Below, piece by piece: positions 24,028 through 47,893 of a stretch of 64,000 bases of DNA. Each line of letters opens with the position of its first letter. Within the stretch, counting starts at the first letter, position 1. A program made the position numbers and the translations under genes. The notes under the pieces are model-generated. The model was not told the origin of the DNA and made no database searches. It saw only the letters and a program-made list of their open reading frames with translations. Origin of the DNA: Prosthecobacter gellanilyticus (GTDB taxonomy: Bacteria > Verrucomicrobiota > Verrucomicrobiia > Verrucomicrobiales > Verrucomicrobiaceae); the NCBI RefSeq assembly GCF_007992435.1, contig NZ_BKAG01000002.1, positions 124,001-188,000 of the forward strand, in the 5' to 3' direction.

Positions 24028-24120
24028 GTTTGCGGTTGTTTAGACTTGTTGGCCCTGATGAACCGTGGATTCAATCCACTCTCATCCACCGTCAACTATC
24101 GTAAACCACTGTCAACCCAA
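24028..24120. repeat. Inverted arrays of 10-bp repeats in a divergent promoter region
   Basis: Units related to CCGTCAACTA run in tandem at 24089-24118 (CCGTCAACTA, TCGTAAACCA, CTGTCAACCC). Opposite-orientation units (GCGGTTGTTT, then a degenerate AGACTTGTTG) lie at about 24033-24052. Unit length, consensus and inverted layout match the array at 46781-46880. It occupies almost the whole gap between the AraC gene and the TIM-barrel gene. Confidence 0.65.
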
Positions 24121-45327: not shown

Positions 45328-46764
45328 TCACAGCACCGGAATGAACAACCTCGCGAAACCGTTTCTCAGCTGCTCTTTCAGCGGGAGGTTTTCCAGCATC
45401 GCTTCCGTGATCTCCGCGCTGATGGCTTTCTTCTGGTCCACGATCGCCTTCAATCTCGTCACGAGCGCCGTATTGTGGCATGCCACATTGAACTCAAAGT
45501 TCAGTCGCAGACTGCGCGGATCCCAGTTGGTGGAACCCAGGATCGACCATGCATCATCAATCAGGAGCAGCTTCGAGTGATCAAACGGCGCTGGTGATTC
45601 ATAGATGCGGCAGCCCGCATGCAGAAGCTCGCCATACAGAGTGCGCGCAGCCCAGGCCACGAAAGGGATGTTGTTCTTCGCAGGCGTGATGATGGTGACA
45701 TCGACCCCGCGCGTGGCGCAGAGTTTCAAGGCTGCAAGTAGGGTGACCGGCGGAAGAAAGTAAGGAGTGACAATGCAGACCTGATGCCGGGCGGCACTGA
45801 GCGCCGCAAACAGCGCCGTCGGCATCACTTCATAGTCTTCATCCGGTCCGTCCACAATGCCCAGGCCATGCACATTGCCGGTCGGCGCGATCTCCGGAAA
45901 CCACAGCTTCTCGTCCAGAGCCTCGCCCGAACAAAAGATCCAGTCTTCCGCAAACACCCGCTGGATCTGGGTCACGACCGGACCTGTCAGCTTGAACTGC
46001 AGATCCTGCACGGGATGACCTGGATGGCGCGCCAGCATGTTCCCCTCACGAATGTTCATCCCGCCCGTGAAGGCGATGCAGCCATCGACGACGAGGACCT
46101 TCTTATGGTTTCGCAGATTCATCGTCAGCAGCCGCAAGATGAAGCGGTTAGGCATGAAGCGTTCCACAGGCACTCCACGTTCAGATAGCACCTTGGTCAC
46201 GGGTGGCCAGGAGTAGCGCGTGCCCGCATCATCCACGATCACACGCACCTGCACGCCGCGTTTGCAGGCGGCGTCCAGGGCATCCACAAACTCAGCTCCG
46301 ATGCCCGTGGCCTCAAAAATATAGCTGGAGAGCGCCACGCTGCTTTTCGCTTCACGAATCGCGGCGATCATCGCCGGCATGGCCTCATCACCATTGATAA
46401 AGGGCACGATGCTGTTGCCCGAACTAAAATTAAATCGCGAGATGCGGTCAAGGGTCACTGCCAGGGATCCATCACGCTCGGAGCGCTCCGCATCCCCATG
46501 GACAAACAGCGGGCAGGTGGGCACAGGGTCGCGATAAGCTGGACCGATGCCACCGCGATACTGCTGGCCGCGCCGACGAATGAAATTGATCCCTAGCAGC
46601 CCGTAAAGACACGCTCCGAGAAACGGCGAAAGCACAATGATCGCCACCCAAAACGCCGCTGACCGATGATCCCGCTGATGAGTGAGCAGATGTCCCAGCG
46701 CGATCACGCTGAGCGTGATGGCCACCAGTGAGAATGTCAGCGTCACATATTGCCAGTCGGTCAT
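45328..46764 (-). CDS. cls: Cardiolipin synthase (phospholipase D family)
   Basis: About 478 residues. Two N-terminal helices (VTLTFSLVAITLSVIALGHLL and AFWVAIIVLSPFLGACLYGLLG) are followed by two PLD domains with HKD motifs. The first reads NHKKVLVVDGCIAFTGGMNI; the second reads FDHSKLLLIDDAWSILGSTNWDPRS. Cls condenses phosphatidylglycerol into cardiolipin at the inner membrane. The frame extends to 46872 through the 10-bp repeat array; ATG 46764 is chosen because the helix begins right after it. It lies downstream of dhaK on the same strand, separated by the array. Confidence 0.92.
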   Translation of the reverse strand: MTDWQYVTLTFSLVAITLSVIALGHLLTHQRDHRSAAFWVAIIVLSPFLGACLYGLLGINFIRRRGQQYRGGIGPAYRDPVPTCPLFVHGDAERSERDGSLAVTLDRISRFNFSSGNSIVPFINGDEAMPAMIAAIREAKSSVALSSYIFEATGIGAEFVDALDAACKRGVQVRVIVDDAGTRYSWPPVTKVLSERGVPVERFMPNRFILRLLTMNLRNHKKVLVVDGCIAFTGGMNIREGNMLARHPGHPVQDLQFKLTGPVVTQIQRVFAEDWIFCSGEALDEKLWFPEIAPTGNVHGLGIVDGPDEDYEVMPTALFAALSAARHQVCIVTPYFLPPVTLLAALKLCATRGVDVTIITPAKNNIPFVAWAARTLYGELLHAGCRIYESPAPFDHSKLLLIDDAWSILGSTNWDPRSLRLNFEFNVACHNTALVTRLKAIVDQKKAISAEITEAMLENLPLKEQLRNGFARLFIPVL

Positions 46765-46780: not shown

Positions 46781-46880
46781 CCGTTTGCGGTGGTTTGCAA
46801 TCGTTCGCAGTTGTTTGCGGTGGCTTGGAAAAACAACTGCAAACAACCGTCAACCACGGCAAACAACCGCAAACGGTCTG
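46781..46880. repeat. Inverted arrays of 10-bp repeats
   Basis: The segment divides exactly into 10-base units. On the left, 46781-46830 gives CCGTTTGCGG, TGGTTTGCAA, TCGTTCGCAG, TTGTTTGCGG, TGGCTTGGAA. On the right, 46831-46880 gives AAACAACTGC, AAACAACCGT, CAACCACGGC, AAACAACCGC, AAACGGTCTG. The right units are the reverse complement of the left consensus (CYGCAAACMA on one strand). The result is two head-to-head arrays around GGAAAAAC, between dhaK and cls. Confidence 0.8.
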
Positions 46881-46882
46881 CT

Positions 46883-47893
46883 TCAAAGTTTGGTGTAGCC
46901 CACGCTCTCGCAGGGCAGATCCCAGAGCTTCTTCAGCTCGGCATCCAGCTTCGTGATGCTGAAGCTCACGCCCGCCATTTCCTGGCAGGTGACGATGCTG
47001 TCCACGATGGTGTGATGCACCTTGATGCCACGGGCATCCAGGATCGGACGCGCGGCGCGCAGGAGAATGAGAAGCTCCATCATGTGCGTGGAGCCGAGGC
47101 TGTTCACGAAGAACACGATCTCATCACCCGCATTCAGCGGCATGTCGTCAGCAAAGAGCAGGTCGAGAATCTTCGCGGCCAGCTCGTCAGCGGTGCACAT
47201 GGGGATGAGGCCCACACCCTTCTCACCATGGATGCCCATGCCGAGACCGATCACGTCATCTGCCAGTTCAAAGGTAGGCTCACCCGTGGCAGGGATGGAG
47301 CCTGGCTTCGTGGACACGCCGACGGTGCGGGTGTTGTCCACGGCCTTCTGGGCGATACGGACCAGCTCATCCAAAGAATCCACGACTGTGGCAGCAGCAC
47401 CTGCGAGCTTGGTGATCGGCACAAGGCCACCCACACCACGGCGGTTCTGCTTCTTGTCCGGCGGAGCAGAGCAGACATCGTCATTGATGATCACGGTCTT
47501 GACGGTGATGCCTTCGTCCGCGGCCAGCTCACCGCCGATATCAAAGTTCATCACGTCACCGGCATAGTTGCCGTAAAGGAAGAGCACACCCTTGCCGCGG
47601 TTCACCGCTTGAGTGGCCTCAAGCACGATGTCCGGAGGTGGAGCCGCGAAGATCTCGCCCACGGCAGCACCATCCGCCATGCCCTTGCCGACGAGGCCGT
47701 GATAGATCGGCTCATGGCCCGCGCCACCGCCCACCAGCAGGGCCGGAGCATCTGGACGCAGGTCATTCATCACCAGGGAGCGCTTGCCCACGCGGCGGAC
47801 CTTGCCGTCGTAAGCGAGCACGAGGCCTTCAAAGAGTTCGTCGGCACACTTCAGCGGGTCATTGATGATCTTTTTGGCGGAGTTTTTGCTCAT
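46883..47893 (-). CDS. dhaK: Dihydroxyacetone kinase subunit DhaK
   Basis: About 336 residues. The substrate-binding subunit holds dihydroxyacetone as a hemiaminal on a His; the GMGIHGEKG motif carries it (about residue 222). The N-terminus has KKIINDPLKCADELFEG, and LLVGGGAGHEP is a family landmark. YGNYAGDVMNFD is another. DhaK needs a nucleotide-binding DhaL (or fused ATPase domain), which is absent here. ATG 47893 is chosen where homology begins; the open frame to 48010 overlaps the neighbouring gene. Confidence 0.92.
   Translation of the reverse strand: MSKNSAKKIINDPLKCADELFEGLVLAYDGKVRRVGKRSLVMNDLRPDAPALLVGGGAGHEPIYHGLVGKGMADGAAVGEIFAAPPPDIVLEATQAVNRGKGVLFLYGNYAGDVMNFDIGGELAADEGITVKTVIINDDVCSAPPDKKQNRRGVGGLVPITKLAGAAATVVDSLDELVRIAQKAVDNTRTVGVSTKPGSIPATGEPTFELADDVIGLGMGIHGEKGVGLIPMCTADELAAKILDLLFADDMPLNAGDEIVFFVNSLGSTHMMELLILLRAARPILDARGIKVHHTIVDSIVTCQEMAGVSFSITKLDAELKKLWDLPCESVGYTKL

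Follow-up and report, generated by a model that had tools for sequence, protein, structure and literature searches.

An inverted array of 10-bp units between dhaK and cls in Prosthecobacter gellanilyticus, and similar arrays at gene boundaries in its relatives and their phages

Between the dhaK and cls genes of Prosthecobacter gellanilyticus lies a short stretch of repeated 10-bp units whose orientation is reversed halfway through. What kind of element this is, and how it came to stand between these two genes, is the question considered here. The window, that is the whole stretch of DNA that was analysed, is 64,000 nucleotides long. The relevant features are listed below; distances between elements and genes depend on gene calls made with a simple codon-usage script.

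45328–46764, minus strand: cls-like phospholipase D family gene; start at 46764, 18 bp from the focal element
46783–46874, no strand: whole inverted-pair element, 92 bp; hairpin z −7.4 (RNA) and −5.7 (DNA) relative to shuffled sequences
46783–46828, minus strand: left arm of 10-bp units, GTTKRC+4 on the plus strand and GYMAACNAYN on the minus strand
46829–46874, plus strand: right arm, reading AAAAACAACT, then GCAAACAACC GTCAACCACG GCAAACAACC GCAAAC on the plus strand
46883–47893, minus strand: dhaK, dihydroxyacetone kinase subunit; stop at 46883, 8 bp from the focal element
24028–24116, no strand: second inverted-pair element of the 10-bp family, between two divergent genes

The sequence-only reading took this segment for an inverted array of variable 10-base units, and this is borne out, with the hexamers and the axis now located. 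Two head-to-head arms of 10-bp units make up the element, the unit of the AC-rich arm being GYMAACNAYN. The left arm has the hexamers GTTTGC, GTTTGC, GTTCGC, GTTTGC and GCTTGG (at 46783, 46793, 46803, 46813 and 46823), of which the innermost belongs to a degenerate unit, and the right arm has GCAAAC, GTCAAC, GCAAAC and GCAAAC (at 46839, 46849, 46859 and 46869). The symmetry axis is at 46828/46829, without a real loop, and the predicted folding energy as RNA is −55.8 kcal/mol. Because cls was beside dhaK in none of the 29 relatives read, there is no comparison of filled and empty sites for this copy. The second element in the window (L111 8029–8117) is 8 bp and 12 bp from the start codons of its divergent gene pair, and across the genus the orthologous place holds either 10-bp or 7-bp arrays.

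The very stable predicted hairpin, and the frequent position of these elements directly 3' of a stop codon, could be those of an RNA-level element – a transcribed hairpin that terminates transcripts, takes part in their processing or protects 3' ends between genes. However, the variable positions show no covariation that would keep the arms paired, elements are also found between divergent starts, and many single arms have no partner. There is no U-tract, and a scan for intrinsic terminators (a GC-rich hairpin followed by a T-run) calls none at the focal element. The search for RNA families gave no credible match in Rfam; all that came up were weak resemblances to miRNA hairpins, scoring far under the gathering scores. 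An RNA-level role is therefore quite improbable.

The sequence-only reading was to be given up if no such arrays existed elsewhere, but there are many. A three-unit pattern with at most one mismatch had 207 matches in the genome of ca. 7.65 Mb (117 forward and 90 reverse), while the reversed pattern, used as a control, had 0. There are roughly 100 arrays per genome, a count that, like the others made genome-wide, is based on pattern searches; the family is also found on phages. In a scan of 400 kb picked around arrays, in which nearby periods other than multiples of 3 were compared, 37 segments had a period of 10 bp, three of 8 bp, one of 11 bp and none of 13 bp. The decamer pattern was present in 18 of 24 members of the genus and absent from all 13 further members of the order that were sampled. 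A scan of 387 genomes of the phylum gave exact matches in four genomes only, all from the same bacterial family. No match to a plasmid source of the arrays was found, nor any match among the INPHARED phages. The arrays form a numerous family, whose range is limited to this bacterial family and the phages of that family. Among the matches listed in other phyla, eight records were read: five are exact tandem repeats, and the remaining three are Bacteroidales with one common locus. At this locus (L320, L345, L369) a four-unit array, GTMAACNATN, lies beside mnmE, and in L369 there is also an integrase-like gene; this array is possibly the operator or attachment region of a mobile element.

The elements have a constant architecture. 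A total of 91 similar inverted-pair elements were collected. The 29 inverted pairs found in 800 kb of this genome and in portions of three related genomes all have their arms in one order, GT-arm and then AC-arm, so that terminal inverted repeats, a criterion for MITEs, are present throughout. The usual arm has four to five degenerate units, and the median element length is 100 bp (68–143 bp from the 5th to the 95th percentile). The outermost hexamer is mostly 1–12 bp from a stop or start codon, and this placement at gene edges is seen in tandem, divergent and convergent gene pairs, with no preferred gene orientation. Spacers without an element have median lengths of 105 bp (tandem) and 213 bp (divergent), so an element can fill nearly the whole of a spacer. 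Beyond the terminal GYMAAC, the flanking bases are mainly TTCC, GGCT, TTCA or TTCT, and an inner motif, CCAAGCC, recurs weakly (8 elements, 0.7 expected). No target-site duplication was found: the longest word common to the two flanks is 3.79, compared with 3.66 (sd 0.09) when flank pairs were shuffled.

Single arms made of the 10-bp units are found as well, in many cases within larger intergenic mosaics that hold other 10-bp arrays, GATYNACCTG and GATYNASTCG. Four of these mosaics (L118 9450–10030, L120 9150–9850, L128 9450–9920 and L129 9150–10170) have a recurring order: the GATYNACCTG array, the GATYNASTCG array, the GYMAAC array and then GACCCAAGCGGACCCTTTGGACACC. A separate dispersed intergenic repeat with a period of about 9 bp, TTCCGCGTCTTCCGTGTATTCCGTAGG, is found in L007, L011, L015 and L116.

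Within the unit, positions 1, 4, 5, 6 and 8 are nearly fixed, positions 2 and 9 are C or T, position 3 is A or C, and positions 7 and 10 are free. Along an array, position 2 tends to keep the same state (z of 7 in this genome and 17 in relatives). Only 16% of arrays are mixed at this position, with 56% expected, and the two arms of an element agree at it with a frequency of 0.84 versus 0.50. Its state defines two kinds of element, T-type and C-type. At positions 3 and 7, neighbouring units differ more than expected; when units were shuffled within arrays, the effect was clear at position 3 (z −4.4 for T-type, −4.5 for C-type) and weak at position 7. The rules observed in the units are of the kind that would be expected of a binding site.

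If position 2 is set aside, the arms of one element resemble each other no more than they resemble the arms of other elements; at the remaining variable positions there is no covariation between them, and identity across arms is that expected by chance. Among 53 arms from the 800 kb sampled in this genome, none are nearly identical, and nearest-neighbour identity is 32.5 of 36, compared with 32.4 for independent draws from the profile. In their letters, the arrays look as if each had been drawn independently from a degenerate template. It follows that the precise hairpin is not conserved, and that recent copying – copy-and-paste in particular – cannot be traced from the similarity of the arms. 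Three other ideas were rejected on observations of this type. Quasipalindrome correction that homogenises the arms was rejected because arms within an element show no excess similarity, and selection for a hairpin on the lack of covariation. A function in stopping translation was rejected because T-type units contain stops and C-type units do not, while units alternate equally in both.

Such rules could also be those of functional binding sites for a host protein, a nucleoid-associated protein or global regulator, kept by selection while the free positions drift to saturation and slippage removes exact neighbouring repeats. This would account for the mixture of constrained and free positions, the coherence of position 2, the avoidance of identical neighbours and the resemblance of the letters to independent draws. 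Authors working on Geobacter have proposed IHF/HU sites for a similar design (PMC2700814). The occupation of the same junctions in several species is a further point in favour of selected sites, and it is at these junctions that the history of the arrays can be followed.

Six junctions hold elements in at least two of the four genomes compared, and for three junctions the reading was extended to as many as 46 genomes. Because states were assigned by a script with simple thresholds, the counts are approximate. The pgk-tpiA junction is filled in 13 genomes and was scored as empty in 25, meaning a spacer under 60 bp (many are 26–44 bp), with 8 changes on the genus tree. The junction beside a TatD-like gene is filled in 17 genomes and was scored as empty in 18, with 7 changes on the tree. 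Empty spacers at these two junctions are often 6–42 bp. Remnants of the right arm are kept at pgk-tpiA in three genomes (G022, G046 and G023), one TTCGTCA-like array of 7-bp period stands there in several species, and at the TatD-like junction the loop also differs between T-type and C-type versions.

The third junction, between divergent TIM-barrel genes, has a spacer of 79–126 bp in every species read. Decamers were scored in 29 species and inverted AATCRTA-like heptamers in 8, with 3 changes. The heptamer species include G006, G010, G013, G015 and G019, in whose genomes the pattern search had turned up no decamer. The heptamer pattern had 43 matches in G015, 40 in G041, 42 in G056 and 67 in G059, with 0 for the control; the P. 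gellanilyticus genome has both decamers and heptamers (60 heptamer matches). Helical-turn periodicity, named in the sequence-only reading, is not supported as the essential feature: the idea is weakened because inverted arrays with a 7-bp period fill the same places in sister species. Whole arrays have been gained, lost or replaced as blocks at fixed places. Elements are kept at some junctions in most species and may have a function there.

Exchange of the same type is seen in phages. On viral contigs, 23 stretches were matched by a four-unit pattern, and several of them lie near clear phage genes. Arrays also stand in frame within two genes, one for a DNA methylase (L494) and one in L496. Two related phage DHH-family genes (L512 and L513) have flanks that are 93% (left) and 96.5% (right) identical, while the 60-nt array segment between them is only 32% identical; its position, length and frame are equal in both, and it is made of decamers in L512 and of heptamers in L513. 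Behind a portal-like gene of related phages there are T-type decamers in L514–L517, C-type decamers in L518, heptamers in L519 and L521, and no array in L520. This junction is the weaker case, because identity between the L514 and L518 coding sequences reaches only 85% (69% at third positions).

These exchanges count against binding sites maintained by the host as the explanation. Presence or absence changed 8 and 7 times at two junctions, a swap for a 7-bp array would require another reader, arrays also lie inside phage genes, and no gene orientation is preferred. Selected host sites are a possible but rather unlikely account.

Local slippage in unconstrained spacers, with no trans-acting machinery, would explain some pure expansions (in G018 and G012 C62) and a 10-bp duplication between G007 and G058. 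However, one degenerate unit is found at many unrelated loci, the arm order is constant and adjacent units are less alike than chance. Given the dispersed common consensus, an origin by slippage only is unlikely, and slippage as the general explanation is given very little weight. Long and nearly pure expansions of single decamers, among them GCCAACCACA and GCCAACCACC, contrast with the heterogeneous arrays and are located at G018:C16:18993-19108, G018 C5:465938-466023 and G012:C62:2274-2429.

Dispersed repeats in inverted pairs also call to mind REP/REPIN elements mobilised by a RAYT transposase, and there are 19 Y1_Tnp genes in this genome. This explanation is largely refuted and is considered extremely improbable: genomes without arrays carry as many Y1_Tnp genes (G010 has 27), no 10-bp array lies within 600 bp of any of the 20 Y1_Tnp loci read, the majority of which have inverted flanking words of their own. 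Among the RAYT-like Y1_Tnp genes (L468–L487; 19 here, up to 27 per genome), such words include AGCCCGGAGGGCT.

The preferred explanation, held tentatively and with somewhat less than even confidence, is that the focal segment belongs to a dispersed family of small foldback elements, typically 90–145 bp long, that are gained, lost and replaced as blocks, and whose units are probably protein-binding sites. A sequence-specific protein would contact the units, one per repeat, and the T-type and C-type would correspond to two protein specificities. The elements would be spread or exchanged through trans-acting recombination or transposition, or by conversion from another copy, and would persist where harm is small. 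This explanation is preferred because of the 207 matches against 0, the constant arm order and the gene-edge placement; the filled/empty changes (8 and 7) and the exchange of 10-bp and 7-bp arrays (3 changes); the swap of array type in the phage DHH gene and at the portal junction; and the coherence of position 2, the anti-correlation of neighbouring units and the recurrence of CCAAGCC. Counted against it are the lack of near-identical copies among the arms sampled, of target-site duplications and of a linked transposase or autonomous partner among the Y1_Tnp loci read, and the retention of elements at some junctions. The sequence-only suggestion of a protein-binding array or a mobile unit is thus supported as a possibility. 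A bolder and unlikely variant is an activity of these bacteria, acting on their phages too, that writes or replaces whole 10-bp or 7-bp arrays at gene boundaries, each freshly drawn from a degenerate template; if true, the position of an array would be inherited while its sequence is rewritten.

The claim that no described family has this design was too strong, since paired opposite-strand arrays of 7- and 8-bp units are described for Geobacter metallireducens (PMC2700814). There, classes 1–3 of "predicted global regulator binding sites" are multicopy short tandem repeats with variable positions: four 8-bp units GTTGCTYN, three repeats of TCTCCGTS[Y], and five 7-bp units MTYCTGA. The arrays are mostly paired on opposite strands at a variable distance, and were read as putative IHF/HU sites. 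The Prosthecobacter family is alike in its multicopy, degenerate short tandem repeats and opposite-strand pairs, but has another unit sequence and period, and insertion sequences at a fixed distance are a feature of the Geobacter class 1. Block exchange, phage copies and gene-end placement are not reported in the available part of that account (PMC2700814). In Geobacter bemidjiensis, direct repeats of 6–42 nt fill intergenic regions, and one multicopy family is inserted in genes in all frames (PMC2996986); the comparison of its multicopy sequences with the Prosthecobacter family is at the level of description.

Other known systems share fewer features. The TAACTGA heptamers of Beggiatoaceae and Cyanobacteria form intergenic arrays near gene starts or ends with a patchy distribution (PMC4679880), but they are exact 7-bp units, almost all direct and without inverted pairs (PMC4679880). 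The 7-bp period of STRR/TAACTGA-type repeats is not that of the decamers, although 7-bp arrays replace decamers at the same junctions. BrickBuilt of Porphyromonas gingivalis, a minisatellite inside a MITE (PMC4596501), also has tandem units within an intergenic element bounded by inverted repeats, but the units are 23 bp, the elements are 49–591 bp from genes and the end repeats are separate from the units (PMC4596501). REP/REPIN sequences with RAYT are likewise dispersed inverted pairs able to fold (PMC3733652), but their GTAG/CGTC tag is not at the termini of the decamer elements, and their unit is palindromic whereas a single decamer arm is a tandem array.

No description of the 10-bp family, or of the exchange of array families at one site, was found in the open literature searched. 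The paired opposite-strand design of short repeats was already known; what appears to be new is the 10-bp family, together with the exchange of arrays as blocks. Intergenic arrays with short periods have been recorded before, in several phyla, and left unexplained. The Prosthecobacter case adds a large family, with alternative families at the same site in sister species and related phages, and with measured position rules, and so the binding partner, the rate of gain and loss and the effect on neighbouring genes become directly testable.
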